Part shown: positions 6,032 to 26,988 of the stretch, in pieces
Layout: each line of letters starts with the position of its first letter
Numbering within the stretch: the first letter of the stretch is position 1
Origin: an uncultured Thermomicrobiales bacterium
GTDB lineage: Bacteria; Chloroflexota; Chloroflexia; Thermomicrobiales; CADCWN01
DNA: 32,557 nt
NCBI GenBank assembly: GCA_902806415.1
Contig: CADCWN010000202.1
Location: 1 to 32,557, forward strand
Direction: 5' to 3'
The notes under the pieces: generated by a model
Databases searched by the model: none
The model's input: the letters and a program-made list of their open reading frames with translations, nothing else
Told to the model about the DNA's origin: nothing
Translations under genes and position numbers: made by a program

Positions 6032-8464
6032 ATGAATCTCGAACAACTCCTCGAAACCTGGCGCGCGAATCCGCAGCGCCGCCATATCGTCCACTGGCAG
6101 ACGCAGGAGGCGGTCGAAGCCGAGTACGCCCCGCTCCCGGCAACGCTCGATCCGCGACTCGTCGCCGCGCTCGGCGCACAAGGGCTGGACCGCCTCTACT
6201 CGCACCAGGCCGCCGCCTTCGACAGCATCACCGCCGGGCAGCATACGTGCGTCGTCACCCCGACCGCCTCAGGCAAGACCCTCTGCTACACCCTCCCCGT
6301 CCTCAACGCTATCCTGGCGGATGACGGCGCGCGCGCCCTCTATCTCTTCCCCACGAAGGCCCTCGCCCAGGACCAGGCCGCCGTGCTACGCCGCTTCACC
6401 GCAGACATCACCAACGCGGCAGGCGGAACGGGGAACGGGGAAGTAACGTCGCCGGAAGAGATAAGCGTTGAGCCATCTTCCGGCGCAAATTCCGCGTTCC
6501 CCGTTCCGCCTGCCGCGTTCGTCAAGGTGCACACGTACGATGGTGACACCCCCGCGACCGCGCGCAAGCTGATCCGCACCGCCGGGCATGTGGTGATCAC
6601 CAATCCCGATATGCTGCACTCCGGGATCCTGCCGCACCACACCAAGTGGGTCCGCCTGTTCGAGTCGCTGCGCTACGTCGTGATCGACGAGTTGCACGGC
6701 TATCGCGGCGTCTTCGGCTCGCACGTCGCCAACGTGATCCGACGGCTGCGCCGGATCTGCCGCTTCTACGGCTCCGACCCGATCTTCATCCTCTGCTCGG
6801 CCACGATCGCCAATCCCGGCGAATTGGCCGAGCGGATTATCGGCGCGCCCGGCGGCGTGACGACGATCGATCGCAACGGCGCGCCGCGCGGACGGCGCGA
6901 GTTCATCTTCTACAACCCCCCGGTCGTCAATCCTGAGCTCGGCATCCGCCGCAGCTCGGTCCTCGAAGCGGCGGGGGTGGCGGGCGAACTGATCCGCAAC
7001 CGGATCCACACGATCGTTTTCGCCCGCGCCCGCACGACCGCCGAGGTCCTGCTGACCTATCTGCGCGAGGCGCTGCCGCCCGGTATCGACCGCGAGGCGA
7101 CGGTGCGCGGCTATCGCGGCGGCTACCTGCCGAACCAGCGCCGACAGATCGAGGCGGGCCTGCGCGATGGCGCGATCACCGGCGTCGTCAGCACCAACGC
7201 GCTGGAGCTCGGCGTGGACATCGGCGCGCTCGACGCCTGCGTGATGACCGGCTACCCCGGCACCGTCGCCTCCACCTGGCAGCAGGCCGGGCGGGCCGGA
7301 CGCCGCCAGGGGGTCGCGGCGGCGATCCTGATCGGGTCGTCGAGCCCGCTCGACCAGTTCATCATGGGCCACCCCGAATATTTCTTCGACCGCGCGCCGG
7401 AACACGGGCTGATCAATCCGGACAATCTGCTGATCCTCCTCAGTCACCTCAAATGCGCCGCGTTCGAGCTGCCATTCGACACGCGCGAGGAGGGCGGCGA
7501 CGACCCGCTCTTTGGCACCGCCGAGGCCGGGACGGTCCTCGCCGCCCTGCAACTGCTCGGCGAGGACGGCGTGGTGCAGGAGGTGGACGGTGCCTGGCAC
7601 TGGACCGATCAGGCGTACCCCGCCGAGGAGATCAGCCTGCGCACCGCCGCGCGCGATAATGTGGTGATCATCGACGAGAGCGAACGTGCCCGCCCGCGCG
7701 TGATCGGCGAGGTCGATCAGTTCAGCGCCCCGATGCTCGTCCACACCGAGGCGATCTACTTCCACGAGGGGCGACAATTCCACGTCGATCGCTACGACCT
7801 CGACGAGCAGAAAGCGTATGTCCACGGCGTGGCGGTGGACTACTACACCGACGCCGACATCGCCGTGCGCGTCCAGGTACTGGAACAGTTCTCGCCCGAG
7901 CCGGTCGGGTCGCCGCGCGCGCACGGCGAGGTGCTGATCGGCGCGCTGCCGACGAAGTACAAGAAGATCAAGCTGCACACGCACGAGAATATCGGCTGGG
8001 GCGAGATTCACCTGCCGGAGTCGCAGTTGCACACCGGGGCGTACTGGCTCTGCCTGCCCCACACACTGACCGACCGGATGCAGGTCGCGGAGTTGCAGGG
8101 GGCGCTCGTCGGGCTCACCAACCTGCTGGCGGTCGTCGCGCCTCTCTACCTGATGTGCGATCCGCGCGACATCGGGGTCCACGCCGAGGTGAAGTCGCCG
8201 TTCACCGGGCGTGGCACGGTCACGATCTTCGACAAGATCCCCGGCGGGATCGGCTTCAGCCAGAAGCTCTACGACACCCACGAGACGCTGCTCGAAGCCG
8301 CGCACGATCTGATCGCCGCCTGCCCCTGCGCGAGCGGGTGTCCGTCGTGCGCCGGGCCGACGGCGGAGATCGGCGCGCGCGGCAAACGCTTGGTCCTCGG
8401 GATCCTCAAGCTGCTGCTCGGTCGCCGCGTCGTCCCCGCCCAGGCAGCTGCCGCCCGCCGCTGA
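6032..8464 (+). CDS. MrfA/YprA-type DEAD/DEAH-box helicase with C-terminal DUF1998
   Basis: An 810-residue SF2 helicase. The Q-like region is LYSHQAAAF, motif I is TPTASGKT (residues 76-83), motif II is DELH (219-222), followed by a SAT motif and a motif VI of QQAGRAGRR type. The C-terminal DUF1998 region ends in a cysteine cluster CPCASGCPSC, the metal-binding four-Cys signature of MrfA. Bacillus subtilis MrfA acts in mitomycin C lesion repair with an exonuclease; no such partner is next to it here. The ATG at 6032 gives the normal N-terminus. Residues about 128-163 are encoded by an inverted-repeat element and appear as an extra low-complexity loop between ALAQDQ and the TYDGDTP motif. Whether the protein tolerates this is unknown. 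Confidence 0.85.
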   Translation: MNLEQLLETWRANPQRRHIVHWQTQEAVEAEYAPLPATLDPRLVAALGAQGLDRLYSHQAAAFDSITAGQHTCVVTPTASGKTLCYTLPVLNAILADDGARALYLFPTKALAQDQAAVLRRFTADITNAAGGTGNGEVTSPEEISVEPSSGANSAFPVPPAAFVKVHTYDGDTPATARKLIRTAGHVVITNPDMLHSGILPHHTKWVRLFESLRYVVIDELHGYRGVFGSHVANVIRRLRRICRFYGSDPIFILCSATIANPGELAERIIGAPGGVTTIDRNGAPRGRREFIFYNPPVVNPELGIRRSSVLEAAGVAGELIRNRIHTIVFARARTTAEVLLTYLREALPPGIDREATVRGYRGGYLPNQRRQIEAGLRDGAITGVVSTNALELGVDIGALDACVMTGYPGTVASTWQQAGRAGRRQGVAAAILIGSSSPLDQFIMGHPEYFFDRAPEHGLINPDNLLILLSHLKCAAFELPFDTREEGGDDPLFGTAEAGTVLAALQLLGEDGVVQEVDGAWHWTDQAYPAEEISLRTAARDNVVIIDESERARPRVIGEVDQFSAPMLVHTEAIYFHEGRQFHVDRYDLDEQKAYVHGVAVDYYTDADIAVRVQVLEQFSPEPVGSPRAHGEVLIGALPTKYKKIKLHTHENIGWGEIHLPESQLHTGAYWLCLPHTLTDRMQVAELQGALVGLTNLLAVVAPLYLMCDPRDIGVHAEVKSPFTGRGTVTIFDKIPGGIGFSQKLYDTHETLLEAAHDLIAACPCASGCPSCAGPTAEIGARGKRLVLGILKLLLGRRVVPAQAAAARR
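6413..6519. repeat. In-frame heptad-word hairpin element inside the helicase gene
   Basis: A 25-bp perfect inverted repeat (left arm 6413-6437, right arm 6495-6519) contains 7-base words (GGCAGGC, GGAACGG twice) and their complements. A second perfect 10-bp pair (CGCCGGAAGA at 6450-6459, TCTTCCGGCG at 6476-6485) is nested inside. The whole stretch is read through in frame as a Gly/Asn/Pro/Ser-rich peptide. Confidence 0.85.
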
Positions 8465-8565
8465 CAAGTCGGGCGGCGGCGCTCGGGCTGGGAGCTACAC
8501 GCATCGGCGAAACGCGGCGTCAAGAGCCGTGCTTCGCCAGTACCCACCGCCTCCGCACCATGTTC

Positions 8566-8597
8566 ACCCTCCCTTGTAGGGGAGGGTCGCCGCCGGG
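8566..8597. repeat. Intergenic hairpin repeat, copy 1
   Basis: ACCCTCCC-TTGTAG-GGGAGGGT forms an 8-bp stem about 100 bases after the helicase stop. The 19-base string GGGGAGGGTCGCCGCCGGG is identical to one at 16397. It may serve as a bidirectional terminator between the helicase and the convergent SH3 gene; no T-run is present. Confidence 0.6.
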
Positions 8598-8666
8598 CAT
8601 TGTCCTGACTTGCAGCAGGATGAATCCGGCTCATCCGGAGCGGCTGGGAGAGGCCCCCCCGCCCCA

Positions 8667-9623
8667 TCACTCCACCGGGGTCGTGTACTCCTCCGGTATC
8701 CAACCCTCGAAATCGAGGTAGCGGATATGCTTCCAGTTCTGCCCTTTAGTGTCGCGCTGATCATCACCGATGACTTCGAGGATGAAGCCCTCCGGGATAG
8801 CGAAGCGCCGTTCCCCGGCGGGCAAGACGTAAACGTTGGCACCCTTATTCTCGGTATTCGCGACCCGCACGCGCGCCGCAGCCGGCCCGGCGGTCGGGGT
8901 CGGGGGGAGATTCGCCGGTGTCGGCGTCGGGGCCGCGCGCGTCGGCGTCACCGGGCGCGGTGCCCCCGACGCGCCACCAGGGGCGACCGCGCCAGTCGGC
9001 ACCACGGGGGGCGCTGTGGGCGGTGGGGATTGCGCCGCGATCGTGGCGGTCTGCGCGCCGCCCACATTCGGCGACGGTGTCGCCTCCGCCGCGCCGCCGC
9101 CGAGAACCCGCACGCCGACTATGAATACCAGGACCAGCGCCAACACCGCCACCGCTGGCGCGACGATCGGCGTCAGCGAGGGATCGCCGACGCGCAGCGC
9201 CGCCGGCCACCACGCCGGCCAGCGTCCCCGCACGGCGGTGGCACTTCCTGCCGAGGCGGCCCCTGCCGCAAGCGGCGCGCCGGATACGGCACGCCCGCTA
9301 TCGGCGGCGTCGGGTGTCGGCACCAGGCGCGGCCGATTCGGCGGCAACGCGACGAGGGGACGTTGTAAGGCGCGGCGACCGCTGAGGGTGGTGCGCGGTC
9401 GCCAATAGCCCTCACGGTCGAGCCGCACCAGACCCAGAGTCTCCAATTCTTCGAGCGCCCGCCGGATCCGCTCGCGCCCGGCCGCTTGCAGATACTCATT
9501 CCCGGAGAGATCGGCGGGCAGGATATCGGCCGCGCGCGCGACGGTATACTCGTCGATCAGTGTGCCGGGGTTCCCCTCCATGTGGTGGATCGCCGCCAGG
9601 ACCGCACGCTGCTCTTCATTCAT
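8667..9623 (-). CDS. Single-pass membrane protein: N-terminal helical/winged-helix-like domain, TM, C-terminal SH3-like domain
   Basis: A 318-residue protein. Residues 1-75 are hydrophilic and mostly helical with the layout of a small winged-helix fold (RRALEELETLGLVRLDREGYW). A linker leads to one transmembrane segment at about 151-172 (TPIVAPAVAVLALVLVFIVG). The part beyond is a Pro/Thr/Ala-rich extracellular linker and a C-terminal domain of about 65 residues (KGANVYVLPAGERRF, later IRYLDFEGWIPEEY) that reads as a bacterial SH3-like domain. The combination suggests a transmembrane sensor or anchor, but the DNA-binding reading of the N-terminus is uncertain. It converges with the helicase gene. 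Confidence 0.6.
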   Translation of the reverse strand: MNEEQRAVLAAIHHMEGNPGTLIDEYTVARAADILPADLSGNEYLQAAGRERIRRALEELETLGLVRLDREGYWRPRTTLSGRRALQRPLVALPPNRPRLVPTPDAADSGRAVSGAPLAAGAASAGSATAVRGRWPAWWPAALRVGDPSLTPIVAPAVAVLALVLVFIVGVRVLGGGAAEATPSPNVGGAQTATIAAQSPPPTAPPVVPTGAVAPGGASGAPRPVTPTRAAPTPTPANLPPTPTAGPAAARVRVANTENKGANVYVLPAGERRFAIPEGFILEVIGDDQRDTKGQNWKHIRYLDFEGWIPEEYTTPVE

Positions 9624-9728
9624 CGCGCTCTTCTACCATTCGTCTGCGGCATGATCGCTCCTTGTGCCCCACGCCACAGCCGCGTCCAGCCTCGCATCCG
9701 CTTCTCGTGCTCGGAACAGTTCGTCGGC

Positions 9729-9734
9729 AGTATA
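9729..9734 (-). promoter_or_regulatory. Candidate -10 box for the SH3-domain gene
   Basis: On the minus strand GGTATACTG lies about 105 bases before the ATG at 9623. The -10-like TATACT is clean, but no good -35 is seen at standard spacing. Confidence 0.3.
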
Positions 9735-9810
9735 CCAGCGGGGGTGACAGATTGAGAACGGAACGAGGGATGGCGGCCTCGCATGTCTGCGGGATTGCCC
9801 GCCACGACCG

Positions 9811-10317
9811 TCATTCCTCCAGGTCGCGCACCATGGTGATATGCTCGATCCCGCCCATCATCCAGACCTTGCCCACCGTGCGGAAACCGAGCAAGCGGTA
9901 GAATCCGACCGCGTGCGTCTGGGCGCTGAGCGTCACCCGCGTGGCCCCGCGCTGCCCGGCGGCGGCCAGCAGGGCGTCCATGATCTCCCAGCCGATCCCT
10001 CGTCCCCGATAGGGCGAGAGGATCGCCACCCAGGCGATCTGCCCCTCGTCGCGCGAAACGTGCAGTCGTCCCACCCCGACCGGGCGATCATCGAGGAACG
10101 CCAGAATGTGTACCGCTCCGGAGCCGTGGTCGTAGGGATCGCGATCGACAACATCGGTCAGGTGCTGCTCATCGATGAACACCGCCCGGCGGATCGCGTT
10201 CACCTCGCGCAGATCGCGCGGGCCGCTCGCCGCGCGGATCGCGAAACGCCTCCCCTCGCCCCCATCCTCGCCGCCCATTTCGTCCCCGCGCACCCGGTTC
10301 CCTTCCCACCGCCCCAT
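9811..10317 (-). CDS. GNAT-family N-acetyltransferase
   Basis: A GNAT-fold acyltransferase of about 168 residues. The acetyl-CoA pyrophosphate loop (motif A) is SPYRGRGIGWEIMDALL. It is preceded by a beta-strand AWVAILS and followed by TLSAQTHAVGFYRLLGFRTVG, a common GNAT C-terminal pattern. IRRAVFIDEQHLTD near the N-terminus is typical of the ElaA/YjcF-like subgroup. Substrate is not predictable. The start is ambiguous: the ATG at 10317 has a GGGGGGAT tract about eight bases upstream, while the track start at 10359 adds 14 residues and one at 10278 would remove 13. It diverges from dxs. Confidence 0.75.
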   Translation of the reverse strand: MGRWEGNRVRGDEMGGEDGGEGRRFAIRAASGPRDLREVNAIRRAVFIDEQHLTDVVDRDPYDHGSGAVHILAFLDDRPVGVGRLHVSRDEGQIAWVAILSPYRGRGIGWEIMDALLAAAGQRGATRVTLSAQTHAVGFYRLLGFRTVGKVWMMGGIEHITMVRDLEE

Positions 10318-10492
10318 CCGACTATCCCCCCGGCTAGCGGCACCGGCGGATGATACCATGCTCTCCGATCCGATCGCGTGCTCGCCAACGAGCGCCCGTC
10401 ACCATCGGCGTGAATGTCGCTGGCATACCGCCTGCATTGTATCTCTCCGATGGTAATCGCCATCTGAAGCAAACCCGGACCCGTAACCTCGT

Positions 10493-10522
10493 TTGACGGC
10501 CGCGCGTTCATCATGCTAGGAT
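10493..10522 (+). promoter_or_regulatory. Sigma-70-type promoter of dxs
   Basis: TTGACG and TAGGAT are separated by 18 bases, about 95 bases before the dxs ATG. It is one of the best housekeeping promoter matches noticed in the window. Confidence 0.55.
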
Positions 10523-10615
10523 CAGGGTTGCTGCAACCACCGCGGGGGCTTTGTGCCGCCCGCGCCCACCTACGTGGTGCGGCAGTCAACACCACGGCGA
10601 AGAAGGAAACAGTTG

Positions 10616-12526: not shown

Positions 12527-12556
12527 CACGCCAGCGGTGTACGAACCGGAAAGATG

Positions 12557-12600
12557 AGCCCGTCCGCCGCCTCGGATTTCGAGGCGGTGGGCTTCGTTTC
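12557..12600 (+). terminator. Terminator after dxs
   Basis: CCGCCTCG-GATTT-CGAGGCGG forms an 8-bp stem, extended by GCCC/GGGC across an asymmetric bulge. It starts 30 bases after the dxs stop and is followed by TTCGTTTCG. Confidence 0.6.
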
Positions 12601-12713
12601 GACGCGGATCAACTTCGGTCGCCGATCGAGCTCCCGCGCGTAGAAGCATCGTTCGCAGCCCCGTATACTAGGTGAAGCTGGACACGATCGGTCGGGACTA
12701 GGGGGTGAGCGAG

Positions 12714-13322: not shown

Positions 13323-13515
13323 ACGCGCGCATCGCCCTCGGCATAGGCCCGGCCTCTCGCACCCCGCGACCGCAACGATCACCCTCACGAGCGCCGCGCC
13401 CGCCCAATCCCAACAGTGTTATCATTCAGCCGCACCGCGAATCTCTTGGGAAGGGGATTGGTGCGCGGTAGAGTGGCGCGTAGTATGGGACGCGCCTGGA
13501 TAGATTGGGGGCGGA

Positions 13516-15159
13516 ATGGCAACGCTGACCGGCGGACAAGCACTGGTCCAGTCACTGAAACGCGAGGGGATCGACACCATCTTCGGCCTGCCGGGTGTCC
13601 AGCTCGACTGGGCGTTCGACGCGCTCTACGAGGAGCGGGACAATGTGCGCGTGATCCACACGCGGCACGAGCAGGCGACCTCCTACATGGCCGACGGCTA
13701 CGCCCGCGCTACCGGCAAGATCGGGACGAACCTGGTGGTGCCGGGGCCGGGGCTGCTGAACGCGATGGCGGGGCTCTCGACCGCCTACGCCTGCTGCTCC
13801 CCGGTCCTCTGCCTGACCGGGCAGATCCAGTCGGACAAGATCGGCGTCGGTACTGGGCTGTTGCACGAGATTCCTCATCAGTTGGAGATGATGGCGGCGG
13901 TCACGAAGTGGGCGCGCCGGGCGATGCACCCCTCCGAGATCCCGGGGCTGGTGCGCGAGGCGATCACCGAGCTCCGCTCCGGGCGCCCGCGCCCGGTCTC
14001 CCTGGAAATCCCGCCCGACATCTTGCAGATGCAGGCCGAGGTCGAACTCCTCGACCCGGCGCAGGTCGAGCGCCAGTCGGGCGATCCCGAGCTGCTGAAG
14101 CGGGCGGCGGAACTCCTGGCGAAAGCCGAGCGACCGCTGATCTTCGTCGGCAGCGGGATCTTCACCTCCGAGGCGTGGGACGAACTGCGCGCGCTGGCGG
14201 AGGCGTTGCAAGCGCCGGTCGTGATGTCGGCGAACGGGCGCGGCGCGCTCTCCGACCGGCACCCGTTGGCGCTGAGCGGCAACGAGGGTCGTCTGATGCT
14301 GCCGCGCGCCGACGCGATCCTGGCGGTCGGGACGCGCTTCGCCGAGCCGCTGACCCGCTGGGGCGGGCTGCCGGAGGGCGTGCCGACGATCCAGATCGAT
14401 GTCGATCCCGAGGAGGTCGGGCGCAACGGCAAGCCGACGATCGGGATCGTCAGTGACGCCAAGCTCGGCCTCGCCGATCTACTGGCGAATATGGACGGCG
14501 CGAAGGGCGTCGGCAACCGTTCGTCGCGCGCCGACGAGGTCGCGGCGGTCAAGGAGTTCGTCGAGGATCAGCTCTTCGAGATCCAGCCGCAGGCGGCGTA
14601 CACGGCGGCCCTCCGGGCCGAGATCCCGGAGGACGGGATCCTGGTCGGCGAGATGACGCAGGTGAGCTACTTCGCGCGCAACGCCTACCCGACCTACGGG
14701 CCGCGCACGCAGATCAACCCCGGCTACCAGGGGACCCTCGGCTGCGGCTTCCCGATCGCCCTCGGCGCGCAGGTCGGGATGCCCGACCGCAAGGTCGTGT
14801 CGATCAACGGCGACGGCGGCTTCATGTTCAATGTGCAGGAACTCTCGACGATGAAGCGCCACAACATCCCGCTGGTGGCGGTCGTCTTCAGCGATGGCGC
14901 GTTCGGCAACGTCAAGCGGATTCAGCAGAACCAATTCGGGCGGCGGACGATCGCCTCCGACCTGCTGAACCCCGACTTCGCCAAGACGGCGGAACTCTTC
15001 GGCATCCCCGGTATGCGCGCGAAGTCGCCCGACGAATTCCAGGGCGTCCTGCGCGAGGCGCTGGCGACCGACGGCCCGGTGCTGATCGATGTGACGGTCG
15101 GGGAGATGCCAGAGCCGGGGCTGCGGATGGAGGCCGCCGCCGGGAAGCAGTGGTGGTAG
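13516..15159 (+). CDS. ThDP-dependent acetolactate synthase-like enzyme
   Basis: A 547-residue enzyme of the pyruvate oxidase/acetolactate synthase superfamily. The N-terminal Pyr domain has IFGLPGVQLDWAFDAL and the cofactor-activating glutamate in HTRHEQATSYMADGYAR. The central domain follows (RPLIFVGSGIF), and the C-terminal PP domain has the ThDP/Mg motif SINGDGGFMFNVQEL through DGAFGNV. Family members include acetolactate synthase, oxalyl-CoA decarboxylase, benzoylformate decarboxylase and glyoxylate carboligase. Absence of a regulatory small-subunit gene and the adjacent Ldh2-type dehydrogenase favour a catabolic or promiscuous 2-oxoacid role over branched-chain synthesis, but substrate cannot be read from sequence. 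Confidence 0.8.
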   Translation: MATLTGGQALVQSLKREGIDTIFGLPGVQLDWAFDALYEERDNVRVIHTRHEQATSYMADGYARATGKIGTNLVVPGPGLLNAMAGLSTAYACCSPVLCLTGQIQSDKIGVGTGLLHEIPHQLEMMAAVTKWARRAMHPSEIPGLVREAITELRSGRPRPVSLEIPPDILQMQAEVELLDPAQVERQSGDPELLKRAAELLAKAERPLIFVGSGIFTSEAWDELRALAEALQAPVVMSANGRGALSDRHPLALSGNEGRLMLPRADAILAVGTRFAEPLTRWGGLPEGVPTIQIDVDPEEVGRNGKPTIGIVSDAKLGLADLLANMDGAKGVGNRSSRADEVAAVKEFVEDQLFEIQPQAAYTAALRAEIPEDGILVGEMTQVSYFARNAYPTYGPRTQINPGYQGTLGCGFPIALGAQVGMPDRKVVSINGDGGFMFNVQELSTMKRHNIPLVAVVFSDGAFGNVKRIQQNQFGRRTIASDLLNPDFAKTAELFGIPGMRAKSPDEFQGVLREALATDGPVLIDVTVGEMPEPGLRMEAAAGKQWW

Positions 15160-15194
15160 GCCGGCAGGCGACCGCGTAGGGCGGATAGAGGGAG

Positions 15195-15301
15195 AACGTT
15201 CGCAGGAGACACGGAGACACGGAGGGGGCGGGGAGTGACGAGTGACGAATACATATCTTCCTCCCGTCCTTCTCCGTGTCTCCGTGTCTCCTGCGAACGT
15301 T
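15195..15301. repeat. Intergenic inverted repeat built from tandem words
   Basis: Two perfectly complementary 30-base arms (15195-15224 and 15272-15301) contain GAGACACG repeated with an 8-base period. The 47-base spacer carries the heptamer AGTGACG twice in tandem (15234-15247). The element fills the gap between the ThDP enzyme and the Ldh2-type gene, ending 22 bases before the latter's ATG and close to its ribosome-binding site. Confidence 0.9.
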
Positions 15302-15322
15302 CCCTCTTGATAGGAGGTGAAG

Positions 15323-16360
15323 ATGCCGACCGTGCGCGTGGACGACCTGCGGACACTCGGCGAGGCGATCTTCCGCGCCGCAGGGGCTACGCCGGAGAAT
15401 GCCGCCGGGGTGACCGCCTCGCTCGTCGGGGCGAATCTGGCAGGGCATGACTCCCACGGCGTGCTGCGCATCCCGAGCTGTATCGAGGAGATTAAGCAAG
15501 GCGGTCTCAAGCCCGCCGCCACCCCGACGGTGACGCACGAGACTCCCGCGACGGCGGTGGTCGATGGCGGCGCAACATTCGGCCAGCTTGGCGCGCGACT
15601 GACGGCGACTCTGGCGGCGGAGAAGGCCAAAGCGCTGGGACTCGGCGCGGCAACGGCGTTTGGCTGCGCGCATACCGGACGAATCGGCGAATGGGCCGAG
15701 ACCGGCACGCAGGAAGGCTTCATCACCTTCGCGGCGGCGGCGGGCGAGCACGGGCCGTTCCAGACGGTCCCGTTCGGTGGGCGAGAGCGGGCGCTCGGGA
15801 CCAATCCATTCGCCTGGGCAATCCCACACGCGAGCGGCGCGCCACCGATCCTCCTCGACTACGCGACAAGCGCGGTGGCGCGCGGCAAGCTGCTGGTGGC
15901 GCGCGACGCCGGCAAGGCGGTCCCCGAGGGCTGGATCATCGACCGCGACGGCCAGCCGACGACCGACGTGGGAGATTTCTTCGCGGGTGGCGCGCTCCTC
16001 CCCTTCGCGGGACACAAAGGCTACGCGATGTCGGTGATCGTCGAGATGCTGGCGGCGGGGTTGAGCGGCGGGCAGCGCACCCCGCCCGGCGAACACGACT
16101 CCTGCCTCTTCGTCGCCTGCTTCGCGCCATCCGCCTTCGGCCCTGCCGACGACTTCGCGGCGAGTGTCGAGCGGATCGCGAACCGACTCGCCGAGCAGCC
16201 TCCAGCAGTCGGCTTCGAGATGGTCCTGCTGCCGGGTGAGCCGGAGACGCACAGCCGCCGCGAGCGCGAGCACGACGGCGTACCGCTGGCCGACGCCACC
16301 TGGGACGCGATCATGCGCGTGGCGCGCGAATTGGACGTAACACATCCCGCCATCGCCTAA
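15323..16360 (+). CDS. Malate/L-lactate dehydrogenase family oxidoreductase (Ldh2/YbiC type)
   Basis: A 345-residue NAD(P)-dependent 2-hydroxyacid dehydrogenase of the type-2 malate/L-lactate dehydrogenase family, unrelated to classical Rossmann LDH. Visible signatures are HDSHGVLRIPSCIEEIKQG near the N-terminus, an AHTGRIGEWAE segment at the position of the catalytic SNHFG-type loop, GTNPFAWAIP and GHKGYAMSVIVEML. The ATG at 15323 has GGAGGT five bases upstream; the GTG at 15317 overlaps that site and is rejected. It follows the ThDP enzyme on the same strand, with an inverted-repeat element between. Relatives include ureidoglycolate and sulfolactate dehydrogenases, so the substrate is open. 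Confidence 0.85.
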   Translation: MPTVRVDDLRTLGEAIFRAAGATPENAAGVTASLVGANLAGHDSHGVLRIPSCIEEIKQGGLKPAATPTVTHETPATAVVDGGATFGQLGARLTATLAAEKAKALGLGAATAFGCAHTGRIGEWAETGTQEGFITFAAAAGEHGPFQTVPFGGRERALGTNPFAWAIPHASGAPPILLDYATSAVARGKLLVARDAGKAVPEGWIIDRDGQPTTDVGDFFAGGALLPFAGHKGYAMSVIVEMLAAGLSGGQRTPPGEHDSCLFVACFAPSAFGPADDFAASVERIANRLAEQPPAVGFEMVLLPGEPETHSRREREHDGVPLADATWDAIMRVARELDVTHPAIA

Positions 16361-17306: not shown

Positions 17307-17309
17307 CTG

Positions 17310-19061: not shown

Positions 19062-19172
19062 CGGCCTGCGGGGATTCTGCGGTATTGCCTGGAAATGGGT
19101 GAGCACGTCTACGTGCCAGCGACGAGATAGGGGTCGGCACGGGGGTGGATGGAGATCGGAGGGTTTTTTCGA

Positions 19173-19334
19173 TTAGGACAGGCCGGTAAACGTCGCATCG
19201 CTTGATATATCGATCATGTCCGCGTTGTTGAAGCGGGCGTCTTTCCCAACCGCAATCAATTGCCCGCCGCGAGCAGCACACCACAGGGCATGGCGGATAT
19301 GATCGTGGTCCCGCTCGGGGTGCTTGTTCGTCAT
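19173..19334 (-). pseudogene. Truncated HEPN (DUF86-like) partner of the MNT nucleotidyltransferase
   Basis: An ATG at 19334 overlaps the stop of the nucleotidyltransferase gene (ATGA overlap), the usual arrangement of MNT-HEPN pairs. The frame encodes only 53 residues (MTNKHPERDHDHIRHALWCA, then ARGGQLIAVGKDARFNNADM) before TAA. This resembles the first helices of DUF86 HEPN proteins, normally about 110 residues. The C-terminal RxxxxxH ribonuclease motif is absent, and I did not find it in the other frames downstream. It is probably a decayed toxin gene. Too short for the ORF track. Confidence 0.5.
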
Positions 19335-19630: not shown

Positions 19631-19860
19631 CCAGCCCCTCCACTCCTTTCCCACAGTATATCGGAGATCAGAGCATACTCCCACAGCGCGAGAAGCGTCT
19701 ACCTATTCCACCCTAACAGAGCATTAGCGATTCTTTGGGAAGTATCTATGCGGCTTTCTTACAACGGTTGTCATTGAGCCTGCCCACCATCAGCGACGGA
19801 AGCCCATCCTTTCTTCTCTCGCAGAATTACCGGTGGCATACAATCTTCAGTCATCCTTGA

Positions 19861-20688
19861 TTACCCGCACAGGAATGCCTCGACCGCCGCGATGAAGGCT
19901 TCCTCGCGCTCGACATGGATAAGGTGGCCGGTGTCGGGGAATTCGACGACTTGGGCATCGGGGCGTGCGGCGAGGAGTTCGTCGCGCCCGCGCTCGCTGA
20001 GTGCGCCGCCAAACTGTGGATCGGCGCGGAGGATAAGCGTTGGCTGTGTGGAATCCGCGAGGATACCGGGCAGGTCGAGCGGGATGCCGTTGTTGCGCAA
20101 GGCGCGGAACGGGCCGTCGGCGGTGTTGATCAGGGCGCGGGCGCTCAGTTCATTGGTGGCGCGGTCGCGCGTCGGGTAGAGATCGGATAAGCCCTCGACG
20201 ACCTCCTCGAACGGCAGTTGCTTGAGTTCGAGCAGCGCGCCGAGCCAGGCCGCGCGACCGCGCGGGTCGGCACCGGGGCTGTGCGGCGGGTCTTCGAGGA
20301 TGAGCCGTGCGATCCGCCCCGGCGTCTCAACGACGGTTTGCGCCGCCACGAGCGAGCCGAGCGAGAACCCGAGCAGCGCCACCCGCTCGTGACCCAACCG
20401 TGCGAGCACCCCCCGCACGTCGGCGGCATAGTCCGTGATCGCGTAGCCGTCGGCGGGCTTGTCGCTGTCGCCATGCCCGCGCAAATCGAGGGCATAGAGC
20501 GTCTGCTCCCGCACCAGCCGCGCGGCCAGGCGCTCGAAGATCCGCCAGGTATCCCAGATGCCGTGCAGCATGATCAGCGGCGGTCGCCCGCTCGGGCCGT
20601 GCCACGCGACGGCGTGGATACGAAGGGGGGAAGTTGAAGGTCGAAGGTCGAAGGTCGTATGCGACGGTCTAATTGTGCTCCCGTCCAC
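19861..20688 (-). CDS. Alpha/beta-fold hydrolase
   Basis: A 275-residue hydrolase with the oxyanion HG motif (MLHGIWDTW), the nucleophile elbow GFSLGS, an acid residue likely in LRADPQ, and the catalytic His in FPDTGHLIHVE. DLRGHGDSDKP is typical of the esterase/haloperoxidase-like group. Substrate unknown. The GTG at 20688 is preferred: AGGGGAG lies about six bases upstream, while the track ORF begins inside repeat DNA. Its first residues (TTFDLRPSTS) are encoded by a tandem GAAGGTC array, so the mature fold starts only at about residue 22. Repeat-derived codons thus form part of the N-terminus. Confidence 0.8.
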   Translation of the reverse strand: MDGSTIRPSHTTFDLRPSTSPLRIHAVAWHGPSGRPPLIMLHGIWDTWRIFERLAARLVREQTLYALDLRGHGDSDKPADGYAITDYAADVRGVLARLGHERVALLGFSLGSLVAAQTVVETPGRIARLILEDPPHSPGADPRGRAAWLGALLELKQLPFEEVVEGLSDLYPTRDRATNELSARALINTADGPFRALRNNGIPLDLPGILADSTQPTLILRADPQFGGALSERGRDELLAARPDAQVVEFPDTGHLIHVEREEAFIAAVEAFLCG

Positions 20689-20771
20689 ATCATCTCCCCT
20701 ATTCGCCATTCGCACCCATCGCCCGTCATTCGGCACCCCTGCCACTCGGCACTCGGCACTCGGCACTCGGC
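20636..20771. repeat. Heptamer word arrays flanking the alpha/beta hydrolase start
   Basis: GAAGGTC occurs three times in tandem at 20636-20656 inside the hydrolase 5' end. ACTCGGC occurs four times in tandem at 20744-20771, preceded by degenerate seven-base words (ATTCGCC, ATTCGCA, ATCGCCC). The second array runs up to within six bases of the PsiE-like stop codon. Confidence 0.9.
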
Positions 20772-20776
20772 ACCCG

Positions 20777-21355
20777 TTACCCTCCCTCGCGGCGGCTCAC
20801 CAGGAAGAGGGCGAGCGCGACGATCAGGATGAGGCCACCCTCGACGACCAACTCGATGATCGCATGGTTAAAATCGTCCCCTTTAAGATCCTTGAGCGAG
20901 AGTTCGGCCCCGACGGAGAGGATACGTCGCACCGATGAGATGATCGCGACGGTCAGGAAGGGGCGCACCGAACTGGTGCGGGTGGTGATGAAGGTCATGA
21001 TGGTGCGAATGATCTCGACCAGGATGAGAACCAGCAGCAACTCGCTGAGGAGATTGGTGAGCGTGGTCGGCACCCCGTCGGCGAGATTCCTCGGGATACT
21101 GAAAAGCGCATACGCGAGCGCCGCCAGCGCCACCACGATCAGCAGGAGCCCGACGGCACCGTAGAGGAGCAGGGTCGCACCGTCGAAGAACGGCTCGAGG
21201 CGCCCCACGAAGTACTGCTGCTGGCGTGTACCGGGGGTTCCCTCTTCCTCCGCAACGGCATCGGCGACGGAAAGCGCCCCCTTGGCTGGTTTCCCTCCTT
21301 CGGGCTGAAGCTCCTCGGGCTCTCGCGGCGGGTCTTCTCGTTGCTCGTCCGGCAT
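20777..21355 (-). CDS. PsiE-like membrane protein
   Basis: A 192-residue protein with an acidic, Pro-rich N-terminal region of about 60 residues and four predicted transmembrane helices. LLLVLILVEIIRTIMTFI followed by VRPFLTVAIISSVRRIL matches the PsiE (phosphate-starvation-inducible E) family core. The E. coli member is induced by phosphate limitation; its biochemical role is unknown, and no Pho box was recognised here. The ATG at 21355 has TGAGGGG just upstream. The gene lies between an Hsp70-like gene and an alpha/beta hydrolase on the same strand. Confidence 0.7.
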   Translation of the reverse strand: MPDEQREDPPREPEELQPEGGKPAKGALSVADAVAEEEGTPGTRQQQYFVGRLEPFFDGATLLLYGAVGLLLIVVALAALAYALFSIPRNLADGVPTTLTNLLSELLLVLILVEIIRTIMTFITTRTSSVRPFLTVAIISSVRRILSVGAELSLKDLKGDDFNHAIIELVVEGGLILIVALALFLVSRREGG

Positions 21356-21500
21356 CGCCCCTCACTCTCAGAACCCTTCGCGGTGCTGTCCCCCTCGCCA
21401 AGTTGTGGCCGAACGAAGACGCCGGGGACATCACACAGCCACTTACTTGAGCATTGCTTCCGCAAATTGCGAGCCGCAACGCTGCGGTGCTCGCTCTTGC

Positions 21501-22868
21501 TCAGGCGGTGCGCGCGGAAGTCCCCTGCCCGGCGGCGCTGAGCGCGAGGCCGGTGGCGACGGAGGTGAAAGCATCCTGGAAGCGCAGCTTCTCGGCCCCG
21601 AACTTCTCGGACAGCATCCGCTGGAAGCGCGGGATCCCCGACGAACCACCGGTGCGAAGGACCGCGTCGATCTGGCCCGGCGCGACCCCGGCGGCGCGCA
21701 GCGCGGCGTCGAGGCAGCGCTCCGCCTGGCGCACGCGCGAGCCGATCAGCGCGTCGAACTCCTTGCGCGTGATCGGCTCGTTGATGGCGATCGCCTCCTC
21801 GAAGAACGCGACTTGATCGCGCTCACAACGCGAGAGCCCGATCTTGACGCGCTCGACCTCGCGGAAGAGCGGCCAGCCGTAGTTGCCGCGCACCAGGGCG
21901 ATCAGGGCGCGCACCTGGCGTTGCGCGGCGCGGTCGGTCTGGTGGGTGAGGCTGTCGAGGAAATTGATCACGCGGATGTCGTTGAGGACCGGGATCGTGT
22001 ACCAGCGCCGGATCGCCTCGATGATATGGCGCGGCATCGGCAGCCGCTGCTCCCCCCAGTGCAAATCCTCCCCGAAATATTTGAGCAGGCGACGGTCCAT
22101 GATGTCCTCGTCGAGGGTGTTGCCGCCGAGCGGGATCCCGGCGGTCGAGAGGACCTCGCGCGCCCCGCCGCCGATCCGCATCACCGTCACATCGAGCGTA
22201 CCGCCGCCGAAGTCGAAGACGATCACGTTGCTGGCCCGGGGCAACGTCGAGGCGAAATGGAGCCCGGCGGCGATCGGCTCAGGGACGAACGTGACCTCCC
22301 CGAAGCCGGCCGTCGCCAGCGCCGCCTCCATCCGTTCCAGCGCCAGGGTGTCGCCATCGGGATCGTTCTCCGCCCAGTGGACCGGTCGCCCGATCGTCGC
22401 GCGGCTGATTGGCCGCCCGAGCGCCTCCTCGGCGCGGCGTCGCATCTCGACCAGGAAGAGGGCGATCAGGTCTTCGAGGGTGCGGAACTGCCCGAAGGTG
22501 TCGGTCCCCTGATAGCTCGCGTCGGCGAGATAGCTCTTCAGCGCCTGGAAGAAGCGCCCCGGCTGCCCCACGTCGATGTTGAAGCGCACCACCTCGCGCC
22601 CGAAGACGGTGTCGATCTCCCGCTCCACCGCAACCTGCTGCCGGATCGTCGTGCGCCCCGCTTCGAGGCGCACGAAAGCGTTGATCGCGTCCTGCCCGAG
22701 GTGGGTCGCGCCCCCGCGCTCGATGTAGAGCAAGGTCGGCACAAGGGTCGATTCGGGATTGCCTCGGTCAAGGTGCAGCAGGCGCGGCGCACGCTCGCCC
22801 GGCTCGACCACGGCGATCGCTGAATTCGAGGTCCCGAAGTCGAAGCCGACGGCGATCTCATCGGACAT
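21501..22868 (-). CDS. YegD-type Hsp70-like ATPase
   Basis: A 455-residue actin-fold ATPase. The phosphate-1 motif is GFDFGTSNSAIAV, the phosphate-2 motif VFDFGGGTLDV, and a late adenosine-type motif is LRTGGSSGIPRFQ. It lacks the DnaK substrate-binding beta-sandwich and lid, as in the YegD subgroup, whose function is not established. The ATG at 22868 has AGGGGG about seven bases upstream; the 73 extra residues in the track are read from repeat DNA and rejected. A heptamer array lies 14 bases beyond the start, next to the ribosome-binding site. No DnaJ or GrpE gene is adjacent. Confidence 0.85.
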   Translation of the reverse strand: MSDEIAVGFDFGTSNSAIAVVEPGERAPRLLHLDRGNPESTLVPTLLYIERGGATHLGQDAINAFVRLEAGRTTIRQQVAVEREIDTVFGREVVRFNIDVGQPGRFFQALKSYLADASYQGTDTFGQFRTLEDLIALFLVEMRRRAEEALGRPISRATIGRPVHWAENDPDGDTLALERMEAALATAGFGEVTFVPEPIAAGLHFASTLPRASNVIVFDFGGGTLDVTVMRIGGGAREVLSTAGIPLGGNTLDEDIMDRRLLKYFGEDLHWGEQRLPMPRHIIEAIRRWYTIPVLNDIRVINFLDSLTHQTDRAAQRQVRALIALVRGNYGWPLFREVERVKIGLSRCERDQVAFFEEAIAINEPITRKEFDALIGSRVRQAERCLDAALRAAGVAPGQIDAVLRTGGSSGIPRFQRMLSEKFGAEKLRFQDAFTSVATGLALSAAGQGTSARTA

Positions 22869-22881
22869 GGTGTTCCCCCTG

Positions 22882-22909
22882 GGTCGAAGGTCGAAAGTCA
22901 AAGGTCGAA
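22882..22909. repeat. Heptamer tandem array upstream of the Hsp70-like gene
   Basis: GGTCGAA, GGTCGAA, AGTCAAA, GGTCGAA occur head to tail. The word is a rotation of the GAAGGTC word found in the alpha/beta hydrolase gene 2.2 kb away. Confidence 0.85.
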
Positions 22910-23222
22910 GGGGCAGCGTGGGCGGATCGTATTGTCGCGGTGCTGGGGGCGGCGCGCACCGACCCGATGAGGGGGATACCGCTGGCCTTTCGTACAGGGG
23001 TAACAGATCGCGGGTTTCAACGCACCATCTGGGGGAAAGGCGGCCAGGCACGCGAATGTTTGCTAAGCTCAGGGACGTGCTCTCCACGACTATCTCCTTG
23101 GCCTGCGGAAAGCGCCCGCTCGAAACCTTGACGCCAAAGCCGACCGCAGCAGAAGATGGACAAGGATGCGATGCGGCACACGATCGAGGCGCAGACGGCC
23201 AGGGATAGCGAAGAGAGAATCA
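22910..23222. other. Intergenic region before hicBA
   Basis: About 313 bases without a recognised gene between the divergent Hsp70-like and hicB starts. A 41-codon ORF from ATG 23155 overlaps hicB in another frame and matches nothing I recognise. No convincing promoter or operator palindrome was found. Confidence 0.5.
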
Positions 23223-23477
23223 ATGCTGAGCGCATATATCCGTGCTACGATGGCGCGCACTACCTACAAAGAGCTCGATGAGAGCGGCCGCTACTTCTTC
23301 GAGATCCCGGAACTCCAAGGGGTATGGGCGGACGCCGACACTATCGAGACGGGCCGCGCGGAATTGCAGGAAGTCTTGGAGGATTGGATCGCCCTCGGGT
23401 TATCGATGCACCAGGACTTCCCGATCCTCGACGGCATTGACATCAACCTCAAGCATGCCACGGGGATCGGTCACTGA
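23223..23477 (+). CDS. hicB: HicB-like antitoxin
   Basis: An 84-residue protein with the HicB partial RNase H-like fold. DESGRYFFEIPELQGVWADA, then TGRAELQEVLEDWIALGLSM fits the family core that binds and blocks HicA. Start at ATG 23223 with AAGAGAG upstream; the track start 19 codons earlier lacks a ribosome-binding site. Its TGA overlaps the ATG of hicA by one base, so translation is likely coupled. The antitoxin precedes the toxin, the reverse of the E. coli hicAB order but common elsewhere. No C-terminal DNA-binding domain is present, so this HicB may not itself repress the operon. Confidence 0.8.
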   Translation: MLSAYIRATMARTTYKELDESGRYFFEIPELQGVWADADTIETGRAELQEVLEDWIALGLSMHQDFPILDGIDINLKHATGIGH

Positions 23478-23653
23478 TGCCGCGTTTCGAGCCGATACGT
23501 CGCGCCGAATTGATCACCGCCTTCCGCGCGCTCGGCTTCACCGGGCCACACTCGGGATCTCGCCATAGTTTTATGCAGCGAGGAACCATGCGCGTGCGTA
23601 TCCCGAATCAAGATATTGGCAACCGGAACTTGCTACACGAGATTCTGCGGTGA
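23477..23653 (+). CDS. hicA: HicA-like mRNA interferase toxin
   Basis: A 58-residue basic protein below the ORF-track cutoff. It reads MPRFEPIRRAELITAFRALG, then GPHSGSRHSFMQRG and VRIPNQDIGNRNLLHEILR, matching the HicA double-stranded-RNA-binding-like fold. The conserved catalytic His is in SGSRHSFM. HicA proteins cleave mRNA and are neutralised by HicB. Translation is coupled to hicB through a TGATG overlap. The gene appears complete, although the C-terminus is at the short end of the family. Confidence 0.8.
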   Translation: MPRFEPIRRAELITAFRALGFTGPHSGSRHSFMQRGTMRVRIPNQDIGNRNLLHEILR

Positions 23654-23706
23654 CGCGCGGAATGGGAAGCGATCTAGCGCCGCAGGCACCGCTTCGAGAT
23701 GACCCG

Positions 23707-25428
23707 TCAGCGGTTCACTGCGTAATACGCCTCGATCACCTGGCGGGCGATCCCGAGGGCCGCGCCCGCGCCGGAGCCGCCGCGCTCGACGATCACCGCC
23801 ATCGCGATCTCCGGCGGCCCATTCGGCTTGCCGGCAAAGCAGATGAACCAGGAGTGGGAGTCGCCATCGCCGAGTTCGGCGGTGCCGGTCTTGCCGCCGA
23901 TGACGAGACCATCGATCTTCGCCCTGGTGGACCCGCCACGCTCGACGCTGGCGAGCATCAGCGTGCGGACCTGGTCGGCGGTGTTGGCGCTGATCGGGGT
24001 CAGCCAGGTCTTGGCGCGGGTCTGCTCCAGCAACTCACCGCCGGGGCTGCGGGCCGCGCCGACGATGTACGGCTCGGGCATCTTGCCGCCATTAACCATC
24101 GCGGCGGTGATCAGCGCCATGTGCAACGGTGTGGTCAGCAATTCGCCCTGCCCGAACCCGGTATCGGCCAGGGCCGGCTTGCTCGACAGGTAGTTCGGAT
24201 CGGACGAGATCGAACTGGCCGCGCCGCGCTGCCCGAGCGCATTCGACAGGCCGTTAAAGGGGATCTCCTCGCCGAACCCGAACTTCTTGGCATACTCGTT
24301 CGTCCGCACCGTGCCGGTGTCGAGGGCGATCTGCGCGAAGACGATATTGAGCGAGTAGAGGTAGCCCTCGGTGACGCTGTACTCGTTCTTCACCGGCTCG
24401 GGTCGGTTCAATTCGATGATCTGGTGACCGTCGATCACGATCTCGCCCGGATCGGGATAGATCTTGGTGGGCGAGACGATCCCGCCATCGAGCGCGGCGG
24501 CGACGGTGAAGGTCTTGAACGTCGAGCCGGGGACGAAGAGCCCTTGCGTGCCGCGCGGCAGGAGCGGATCGCCCGACCCCTCGGCGTTGAGCGCCGACCA
24601 GTACGCCTTGGCGCGGGCGACATCGCGCTCCGACTCGCGCGGATCGATCGCCAACTGCTGGGGATCGAAGCGCGGCGCGGCGGCGTTAACCAGGATCGCG
24701 CCGCTGCGCGGGTCGAGCGCGACGACCGCCCCGCGCCTGCCGGTCGCGTCGAGCGCCCGGTCGGCGACCTGCTGGAGGCGCAGATCGACGGTGAGGACGA
24801 CATCGTTGCCGACCAGGGGCTCGTGGAGGAGGTCGCCCGCGAGGGTTTCGAATGGGTTGCCGCCGGATGAACCGCGCAGATAGCGATCGTAGGCGCGCTC
24901 AATCCCCGCGAGGCCGTAATATTGCGGGCTGTAGTAGCCGACGACGTATGAACTGGTCGAGGGGTAACTGCGCAGGGCGAAGCCATCCGGGGTGATCGTC
25001 GTGTCGGCCAGGATCTGGCCGTTGCGATCGACGATCCGCCCGCGCTGCTGGCGCAGTTGTTCGAGCAGGATCCGCTGATTGACGATCGTGTCGCCGTTGG
25101 CGGTCGGTCGGCTCTCGGTCGCCAACTCGTCCGCCCGGACGACTTGCAGCCGGACGAGGTGGATACTGGTCAAGAGGAAGGCGACGACGAGCAGCGTGCC
25201 GATCCGCACGACGGTGCGATTAAAGGTCGGGAGGTTGGGCGGCAGGCGCGGCCAGAGGAGCAGGACGAAGAATGGCGCGCTGGCCGCGAGCGCCAGCAGC
25301 CAGCGCGCGTCGGTGTTCCCCTCGCGCTGCAGGATCCCGATCCCCAGGATCGCGGCGGCGGCCAGGAACGCGCCGAAGCGCGCCAAGCCGCTGCCGATGC
25401 CGCCGCCGAGTCCGTCGTCAGGTGTCAC
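23707..25428 (-). CDS. Class B penicillin-binding protein (PbpA/PBP2-like transpeptidase)
   Basis: A 573-residue membrane-anchored peptidoglycan transpeptidase. It has N-terminal hydrophobic segments (about 20-35, 43-60 and 73-90), a dimerisation-like region (RGRIVDRNGQILA), and the penicillin-binding motifs SxxK (S302-TF-K305), SxN (S359-L-N361) and KTG (513-515, GGKTGTAE). The layout, with more than one N-terminal hydrophobic segment, differs from the single-anchor form usual in E. coli PBP2/PBP3. The start is GTG 25428 with GAGGG about ten bases upstream. It lies 127 bases after a RodA/FtsW gene, its expected glycosyltransferase partner, as in the actinobacterial rodA-pbpA pair. The gap is filled by heptamer repeats. 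Confidence 0.9.
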   Translation of the reverse strand: MTPDDGLGGGIGSGLARFGAFLAAAAILGIGILQREGNTDARWLLALAASAPFFVLLLWPRLPPNLPTFNRTVVRIGTLLVVAFLLTSIHLVRLQVVRADELATESRPTANGDTIVNQRILLEQLRQQRGRIVDRNGQILADTTITPDGFALRSYPSTSSYVVGYYSPQYYGLAGIERAYDRYLRGSSGGNPFETLAGDLLHEPLVGNDVVLTVDLRLQQVADRALDATGRRGAVVALDPRSGAILVNAAAPRFDPQQLAIDPRESERDVARAKAYWSALNAEGSGDPLLPRGTQGLFVPGSTFKTFTVAAALDGGIVSPTKIYPDPGEIVIDGHQIIELNRPEPVKNEYSVTEGYLYSLNIVFAQIALDTGTVRTNEYAKKFGFGEEIPFNGLSNALGQRGAASSISSDPNYLSSKPALADTGFGQGELLTTPLHMALITAAMVNGGKMPEPYIVGAARSPGGELLEQTRAKTWLTPISANTADQVRTLMLASVERGGSTRAKIDGLVIGGKTGTAELGDGDSHSWFICFAGKPNGPPEIAMAVIVERGGSGAGAALGIARQVIEAYYAVNR

Positions 25429-25440
25429 GGTTGGGTAGCC

Positions 25441-25557
25441 CTCAGCTATCAGCGATCAGGGATCAGCGCGCGGTCCGTCCGGGCGCTCAGCCATATTAAC
25501 GCACCAGAGGACGACTCGGCTTGCTGACCGCTGAAGGCTGACGGCTAACAGCTCATC
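25441..25557. repeat. Facing heptamer arrays between RodA/FtsW and PBP genes
   Basis: Left array 25441-25468: CTCAGCT, ATCAGCG, ATCAGGG, ATCAGCG. Right array 25523-25557: GCTGACC, GCTGAAG, GCTGACG, GCTAACA, GCTCATC. The right words are imperfect reverse complements of the left ones (GCTGA core). The right array overlaps the RodA/FtsW stop codon by two bases. Confidence 0.9.
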
Positions 25558-26983
25558 ACCGCAGCGCGCCACGCCGGGGATCGGAGATATAGAGGAGGAG
25601 GCCGACGAGGACAAAGTTGGTCAGCAGCGAGGTGCCGCCGTAGGAGATGAACGGCAAGGTGATCCCGGTCAGCGGGATGAGGCGCACCACCCCGCCGACG
25701 ATGATCAGCGACTGCATCGCGATGATCGTCGTCAGCCCGACCGCGACGAGGCGGGCGAAACCATCGGCGGCGCGCAGGGCGATGTAAAGGCCGCGATAGG
25801 TCAGCAGGAGGTAGAGCGCGAGGGTGCCGATCGTGCCGAGCAGGCCCAACTCCTCGCCGATCGCGGCGAAGACGAAGTCGCTCTGGATGAGCGGGATGAG
25901 GCTGAGGTTGCCGTAGCCGAGGCCGGTGCCGAACAGTCCCCCCGAGGCGAACGCATACTGACTCTGGATGATCTGGAAGCCGGAGCCGAGGCCGCGCGGC
26001 CAGGGATCGAGCCAGATCGCCACGCGCGCGCCCACGTGCGGCGCAACGCGGTAGATGGCATAGGCCCCGAGTGCGAACGCTGCCAGCCCGGCCACGACGT
26101 AGATCAACCGACCCGAGGCGACGTAGAGCATCGTCAGGAAGATCGAGAAGTAGAGGAGCGCGGAGCCGAAATCATTCTGGATCGCGACGATCGCCAGCGC
26201 CAGCGCCCACATCAGGCCGAGCGGCAGGAGGTACGGGATCGGCGGCAAGCGCAGCGGGCCGAGGCGATACTCGGAGGCGAGGAGCTCGCGCTTATCGTCG
26301 AGATAGGCAGCCATGAAGAAGACCAGCAGCAGCTTGACCGCCTCGCCCGGCTGCACCGCGATCGGCCCGACGACGATCCAGAGCTTGGCCCCCTGGCCAA
26401 AGTCGGTCCCGACGAGCATTGTTAGGACCATCAGGCCGATCGCGGTGAAGCCGACGAGATACTTGTAGCGCCGGAGCAGGTGCAGCTGCCGGAAGAGGAC
26501 GACGATCCCCCAGAGCAGGCCGAAACCGACCGCGATGTAGAACGCCTGCCGCTGCGACACCCCGGTCAGGGGCGGATCCTGGCGCTCCAGGACGGGGTGC
26601 AGGCGTTGGATGATGATCAGCCCCAGCCCGGCCATCGTCGCGGTGATCGGCAGGAGCAGTTGGTCGCCCTGGAAGCCGATCGCGCTGAACCAGAGGTTGA
26701 GGATGTAGAGGAGGGCGACGAACGCCAGGCTGATCCAGATGTCGCGCCAGGTGAAGGCGGTGTCGCGTCGCGGCACCAGGAAGATCGTCAGCAGCCCGAC
26801 GACCGCCATCAGCGAGGGGACGATCAGCAACTGGAATTCGGTCAGGCGAAACCGGCGCAACACATCGCGGAACGCGGGGCGCGGGGCGCGGAACGCGGAA
26901 TTGGGGGAGGCGTGCGCTCCTTGTGCCAATGCTCCTGCCCCCCTACGCCCCTGATTCCGCGTTCCGCATTCCCCGTCCCGCAC
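25556..26983 (-). CDS. RodA/FtsW/SpoVE-family peptidoglycan glycosyltransferase
   Basis: A polytopic SEDS protein (up to 475 residues, about 10-12 helices) that polymerises lipid II. Conserved features are WLDPWPRGLGSGFQIIQSQY (region of the catalytic Asp), GGLFGTGLGYGN, AAIGEELGLLG, and the C-terminal GITLPFISYGGTSLLTN. The start is uncertain: the track GTG (26983) lies four bases after the DUF3090 stop but has no ribosome-binding site, and its first 40 residues come from repeat DNA. The next in-frame GTG (26863) gives a more normal N-terminus (LRRFRLTEFQLLIVP) but is also poorly preceded. It may be translated by coupling to DUF3090. It pairs with the downstream class B PBP. Confidence 0.85.
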   Translation of the reverse strand: MRDGECGTRNQGRRGAGALAQGAHASPNSAFRAPRPAFRDVLRRFRLTEFQLLIVPSLMAVVGLLTIFLVPRRDTAFTWRDIWISLAFVALLYILNLWFSAIGFQGDQLLLPITATMAGLGLIIIQRLHPVLERQDPPLTGVSQRQAFYIAVGFGLLWGIVVLFRQLHLLRRYKYLVGFTAIGLMVLTMLVGTDFGQGAKLWIVVGPIAVQPGEAVKLLLVFFMAAYLDDKRELLASEYRLGPLRLPPIPYLLPLGLMWALALAIVAIQNDFGSALLYFSIFLTMLYVASGRLIYVVAGLAAFALGAYAIYRVAPHVGARVAIWLDPWPRGLGSGFQIIQSQYAFASGGLFGTGLGYGNLSLIPLIQSDFVFAAIGEELGLLGTIGTLALYLLLTYRGLYIALRAADGFARLVAVGLTTIIAMQSLIIVGGVVRLIPLTGITLPFISYGGTSLLTNFVLVGLLLYISDPRRGALR

Positions 26984-26988
26984 TCATC
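26869..26988. repeat. Heptad-word inverted repeat at the DUF3090 - RodA junction
   Basis: Left array 26869-26903: GGAACGC, GGGGCGC, GGGGCGC, GGAACGC, GGAATTG. Right array 26954-26988: ATTCCGC, GTTCCGC, ATTCCCC, GTCCCGC, ACTCATC. GCGGAACGCGGAAT (26888-26901) and ATTCCGCGTTCCGC (26954-26967) are perfectly complementary. The words match those in the helicase element. Confidence 0.9.

Follow-up and report, generated by a model that had tools for sequence, protein, structure and literature searches.

The stretch of DNA analyzed here (32,557 nucleotides, hereafter the window) makes up an entire contig of a draft genome of 5.16 Mb. An initial annotation had reported tandem short words at six loci, and we found them at all six, where it had placed them; the one array to which it had assigned a period of 8 (GGAGACAC, 15205-15224) also has that period. 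The first locus is a hairpin of the GGAACGC class (6413..6519, + strand) that lies in frame inside the gene for a DEAD/DEAH-type helicase (6032..8464, +), whose protein is 80% identical to that of its nearest named relative, a Thermomicrobiales bacterium (Chloroflexota). Its arms (6413-6442 and 6490-6519) flank a 47-nt loop and have the ends AACGCGG...CCGCGTT, with a GGAACGG array at 6425-6442. The second hairpin (15194..15302, +) is built of period-8 words (GAGACACG) and has perfect 31-nt arms (15194-15224 and 15272-15302). It lies between the stop codon of the gene at 13516-15159 and the Shine-Dalgarno (SD) sequence and start at 15323, and its loop contains a GAGTGAC heptad pair.

The remaining four loci are more varied. 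At 20.6-20.8 kb, a left-type array, (GAAGGTC)3 (20636..20657, +), is partnered by a non-complementary right-type array, (CACTCGG)4.4 (20743..20773, +), whose word is the commonest in the sampled genome. A solitary GGTCGAA array (22882..22911, +), with no facing arm, stands directly upstream of an Hsp70-like gene (21501-22868, - strand). The gap between the genes at 23707-25428 and 25556-26863 is filled by an imperfect heptad hairpin (25442..25552, -), in which ATCAGCG words at 25442-25468, also readable as a TCAGCGA array, face GCTGACC, GCTGAAG and GCTGACG words at 25523-25552. Another hairpin of the GGAACGC class (26866..26982, -) fills the gap between the genes at 25556-26863 and 26987-27532; its left words span 26866-26907 (CGCGGAA array at 26866-26900) and its right words 26948-26982 (TTCCGCG array at 26955-26981).

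The three longest inverted repeats in the window with arms less than 200 bp apart are those at 15.2, 6.4 and 26.9 kb. Single-strand RNA folds fell far below those of shuffled sequences at 6.4 kb (z = -10.9), 15.2 kb (-13.6), 25.4 kb (-4.9) and 26.9 kb (-2.9). In contrast, the 20.6-20.8 kb pair, with its differing words, folded no better than shuffles (z = +0.8), as did the unpaired array at 22.9 kb (z = -0.9). Given these values and the missing complementarity, the earlier description of most loci as having facing complementary arms holds for four of the six (6.4, 15.2, 25.4 and 26.9 kb) and fails for the other two. The window had no match in Rfam 15 above the gathering score. Some mechanically derived open reading frames begin inside the arrays, namely a hydrolase frame at 19861-20766 and one at 25556-26983 (window 20571-20776 and 26863-26987), so automatic annotation could assign such proteins false N-termini.

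We quantified the family in a 1.24-Mb sample, about 24% of the window's genome, in which many contigs had been picked for containing hits and density is therefore biased upward. The sample contained 169 exact period-7 runs, while the next-commonest short period had 38. In 517 kb, there were 77 exact period-7 runs against 3 in a fifth-order Markov model, a clear excess that excludes chance and that had no comparable counterpart at any other period except 14. Likewise, 28 hairpins with 7-periodic arms were present, and a null sequence of this type gave 1. Across the full 1.24 Mb there were 89 such hairpins; setting period 14 aside, no other short period exceeded 12. Just 31 words account for all 169 arrays, and AGT/ACT occurs inside 106 of them, compared with 13% of composition-matched random heptamers. 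Seven hairpins were found in the blindly taken contigs C1-C21 (134 kb); from this number and the upward bias of the larger sample, a reasonable estimate is 270-370 copies per genome. Hence, the arrays are real and belong to one genome-wide family of hundreds of hairpins of about 100 bases with stems of tandem 7-base words, which bears out the proposal of a dispersed family with a single architecture and several words. Like STRRs, they are dispersed, intergenic tandem 7-bp units that are over-represented relative to chance.

Among the 89 hairpins, arms measured 15-39 nt and loops mostly 40-60 nt, with a mode of 43. Polarity was fixed, with the AGT arm on the left and the ACT arm on the right (32 versus 0 reversed). 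Same-word array pairs less than 150 bp apart comprised 32 in the +- arrangement, none in -+, none in ++ and one in --; for 32 of 32 to share one polarity has a chance probability of 5e-10. Beyond 150 bp, same-word inverted pairs were not in excess. Facing arms were 95.8% complementary, and 87% of heptad variants were mirrored in register on the opposite arm, compared with 32-39% at shifts of 7 or 14. Because arms were located by their pairing, the raw 87% is uninformative and the evidence lies in the comparison between registers, which with fixed-length arms was 66% versus 40-45%. The arms extend to the ends of the elements as terminal inverted repeats, as in MITEs (e.g., AACGCGG...CCGCGTT), and the inverted pair of conserved ends, variable spacer and extragenic position are those of REPINs. 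The arms are not themselves palindromes, since tandem heptads such as (AGTCCGT)n lack self-complementarity.

Placement relative to genes, which were called with a home-made codon model rather than a standard gene finder, was equally consistent. Intergenic positions held 81 of the 89 hairpins versus 20% for random positions, and most hairpins sat between co-directional genes. Across 62 tandem gene pairs, the element started a median of 3 nt past the stop codon and stopped a median of 20 nt short of the next start, so that the SD sequence of the next gene was intact. Tandem gaps of 90-220 bp were occupied by a heptad hairpin in 52 of 217 cases, or about a quarter. Loci in the window follow the same stop-to-start rule, with the one at 6.4 kb being intragenic. 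By inspection of the listed junctions, right arms lead into SD sequences and no T run of an intrinsic terminator was seen.

Entry of arrays into coding sequence, also proposed in the initial annotation, was confirmed by the copies in the helicase gene and in leuS. All clear coding copies belong to the GGAACGC class. The leuS element is 111 bp long and in frame, lengthening the protein by 37 residues. In two relatives (G001 and G005) the flanking alignments, at about 80% identity, abut without extra sequence, and in the 21 relatives listed the protein passes directly from a GD-like turn to the TTRPDT motif. Judged against these related genomes, the leuS copy is a clean in-frame insertion; no target-site duplication was visible at this, the only clean site. 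The helicase linker of relative L049 is 20 residues shorter at the insertion point, which would fit an insertion there too, albeit less cleanly than in leuS.

Loops provided a separate view of how elements are related. Homology was clear among five loops whose arms carry the word variants AGTCCGT, AGTCGGT or AGTCGGC, in both orientations; iteration added two more. For example, the loops at L009:8388 and L139:2014 share 30 of 45 nt (score 45, against 35 for the best of 2000 shuffles), while all heptads differ on both arms (AGTCGGC versus AGTCCGT). These homologies between elements with differing arms indicate that whole elements have been copied at least sometimes, that loops drift and that arms have changed words in concert. 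A search of the whole genome found other copies, 77-88% identical, for 6 of 28 loops and no detectable second copy for the other 22. Copying of whole elements is therefore demonstrated only for a minority.

Word turnover was visible at orthologous spacers within another genus, g15, represented by G018 (replicons of 2,741,033 and 1,252,731 bp), G028 and G034, with flanking-gene identities of about 91% for G028 and about 80% for G034. The spacers retain heptad arms on a TGCGTNN skeleton. The words differ, as do the cores enclosed by the arms, in some cases completely (for instance, upstream of the gene that follows L079:2651); one site is almost identical in G018 and G028. None of the g15 spacers compared was a cleanly empty intergenic site. 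A palindrome, CCCTCACCCCCGGCCCCTCTCCC, recurs as the core between heptad arms, forming nested elements (L079:2553-2651, L070:6769-6964 and other spacers of the three genomes).

Counts of a repeated AGTN4 pattern ranged from zero to several hundred per genome, both within the same order and across the phylum, and many relatives had none. Words were lineage-specific: AGTCGGG and AGTGCTG in G001, AGTGACC in G012 and AGTTATC in G121. The last, a Chloroflexota genome with long AGTTATC arrays on its contig C1, thereby carries the TAACTGA word of other phyla, which is absent from the words sampled in the window's genome. G004 had long plain arrays and no heptad hairpins in 200 kb, implying that tandem growth is separable from arm pairing. 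Some of its long arrays without a facing arm switch word mid-array (among L097:2249, L098:5269 and L098:9005).

Two other dispersed hairpin families were encountered. One consists of GTAGGGGCGTATTGCATACGCCC with a facing arm, at L014:13563, L020:4674, L020:12036, L020:13090 and L028:2226 in the window's genome and L092:2439 in G001; several copies are about 92 bp with visibly related loops, and it looks like an ordinary MITE-like family. The other is a palindrome family with GTCATCCTGAGCGGAGC ends (L093:5755 and L095:17069 in G001; L085:16576 and L074:12403 in G018).

We consider it somewhat probable (roughly 0.55) that these are small intercistronic hairpin elements of about 80-125 bp, with a REPIN-like plan assembled from STRR-type heptads, that are inserted and then remodeled in place. 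For these elements we observed the period-7 excess, polar inverted arms of the same word, mirrored variants and placement between stop codon and ribosome site. Sequence comparison further shows that leuS carries a clean insertion, that some loops at unlinked loci are homologous, and that words and cores turn over at orthologous spacers. Each element would consist of two facing tandem-heptad arms of one polarity around a loop of 40-60 nt, and its spread would depend on an activity that inserts hairpin DNA. After insertion, one-heptad slippage may homogenize the arms individually, and changes may pass from one arm to the other by template switching. The stem would thereby remain paired while its word changes and its loop drifts. 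The main reason for their persistence would be that an insertion is least harmful between stop codon and SD sequence, with any effects on the mRNA being secondary.

A broader claim is that a dedicated, replication-linked process rewrites words on both arms together while keeping period, polarity and pairing. The spacer would then be inherited as architecture rather than as sequence, and lineages across Chloroflexota, Cyanobacteria and Proteobacteria would have developed vocabularies independently. We hold this claim only tentatively and think it doubtful as a whole.

The main rival to inserted and remodeled elements is selection for RNA structure, in which mRNA hairpins in operon gaps serve 3' end protection, processing or partial termination, pairing is selected, and slippage lengthens the stems into heptads. 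The location of nearly all hairpins between the stop codon and SD sequence of co-directional genes is as expected from such selection, as are RNA folds far below shuffles. G-U mismatches on the sense strand also exceeded A-C mismatches (31 versus 20), although not significantly (p = 0.16). However, selection on RNA leaves unexplained the AGT-left polarity, the small vocabulary common to separate loci, the coding copies and the clean in-frame insertion in leuS, and joint word changes on both arms require more than point mutation. We therefore regard it as unlikely to be the primary explanation.

Still less probable is that the hairpins are genuine REPIN-like elements whose mover is a RAYT/IS200-type (Y1) transposase, in line with the REP-associated or IS200-like, hairpin-recognizing enzyme suggested at the outset. 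Elements of this kind share the overall plan of inverted conserved ends, variable spacer and extragenic location (PMC3116915). Y1 transposase genes are present in the window's genome, and strong Y1 matches were commoner in array-rich genomes (11 of 19, versus 6 of 42 others; p = 0.0013, uncorrected for kinship or size). Yet none were found in the array-rich relatives G005, G012 and G021, the heptad arms lack palindromic units, and the five Y1 genes inspected were flanked by other palindrome families and not by heptad elements, whereas a RAYT gene of a REPIN system would be flanked by the elements it belongs to. Unlinked to the heptads and missing from three array-rich genomes, Y1/RAYT was rejected as the mover. 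Y1 loci (L056, L131 and others, in G018, G004, G014, G059 and the window's genome, G000) are framed by palindromes of their own, such as GGGCTAAAGCC... with AAGCCCACTGAAGGGGCT in G018, and likely represent a REP/RAYT system distinct from the heptads.

Other candidate causes fared no better. A reverse transcriptase was rejected as RVT_1 is absent from the window's genome and from most array-rich relatives. An autonomous element framed by heptad arms was likewise rejected, there being no excess of same-word inverted pairs at 150-8000 bp in the 1.24 Mb that would reveal a longer relative with heptad ends. Loss of mismatch repair is not the cause, because the 28 most complete genomes all had mutS, whether rich in arrays or not.

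Independent local origin, whereby slippage builds each array from local sequence and inversion or fold-back makes the facing arm, had also been suggested by the initial annotation. In many genomes, slippage favors heptads as its unit (Mrazek et al., summarized in PMC4679880), and most loops are unique. We nevertheless judge this origin very improbable in view of only 31 words for 169 arrays, the single polarity, homologous loops at unlinked loci and the insertion of a whole element in leuS. That the arrays are a chance or compositional artifact of a 67% G+C genome has nothing in its favor but the general abundance of short repeats in high-G+C genomes, and can be dismissed given the Markov nulls, the specificity for period 7 and the zero counts in many relatives.

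For decades, heptad repeats have turned up in many bacteria, to our knowledge with no mechanism to explain them. The family described here makes their mechanism testable, as it offers hundreds of copies, measurable polarity, mirrored variants, a copy cleanly inserted into an essential gene, and three congeners whose orthologous spacers kept the arms and changed the words. With about a quarter of mid-sized co-directional gaps occupied, the elements are relevant to annotation, where they can give rise to spurious starts and peptides, and perhaps also to how operons are expressed.

Several known systems resemble parts of this family. In cyanobacteria, heptad repeats were reportedly described by Mazel in 1990, Jackman and Mulligan in 1995 and Elhai in 2008, with Elhai et al. 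said to have found SDR elements of 21-27 nt embedded in heptad arrays. Rickettsia palindromic elements are inserted in frame in conserved protein genes, whereas the present family is mostly intergenic and only one of its word classes enters genes; we know of no heptad structure in the Rickettsia elements. Heptads outnumber all other long simple repeats in many genomes, and polymerase slippage has been proposed for them (PMC4679880). The intergenic TAACTGA direct repeats of Beggiatoaceae, Cyanobacteria and Bacteroidetes (MacGregor 2015, PMC4679880) differ in being direct arrays of one word just upstream of starts, with one inverted case in the described genome. REP/REPIN sequences are extragenic inverted pairs with a variable spacer that form hairpins and number hundreds per genome (PMC3116915), but REP arms are single palindromic units tied to RAYT genes, while the present arms are tandem heptads unlinked to the Y1 genes examined.

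Two systems contradict the initial view that pairing of heptads into inverted arms belongs to no recognized element. In Nostoc and Calothrix, the P6b stem of trnL has pairing arms of 7-nt repeats with free positions (TDNGATT or NNTGAGT), and several lineages have independently replaced the entire stem (Kaasalainen et al. 2015, PMC4476775). That stem is a single locus in a group I intron, whereas the present family is genome-wide and intercistronic. Xanthomonas genomes each contain about 185 GGGAATC arrays, 89-93% of them intergenic and near the end of the upstream gene; they form close inverted pairs of a single polarity, about 70 per genome (Rehm et al. 2015, PMC4692102). These arrays match ours in intergenic location, proximity to the upstream gene's end and one-polarity pairs. 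They differ in having one G-rich word and in having been studied for G-quadruplexes, and the section consulted reports neither a vocabulary of several words nor mirrored variants, homologous loops or insertions into coding sequence. Heptad arrays, even as inverted pairs, are thus already known from Xanthomonas and Nostoc; new here are the stems of many words, their tight polarity, rewriting in place, placement from stop codon to SD sequence that fills operon gaps, and insertions into coding sequence.
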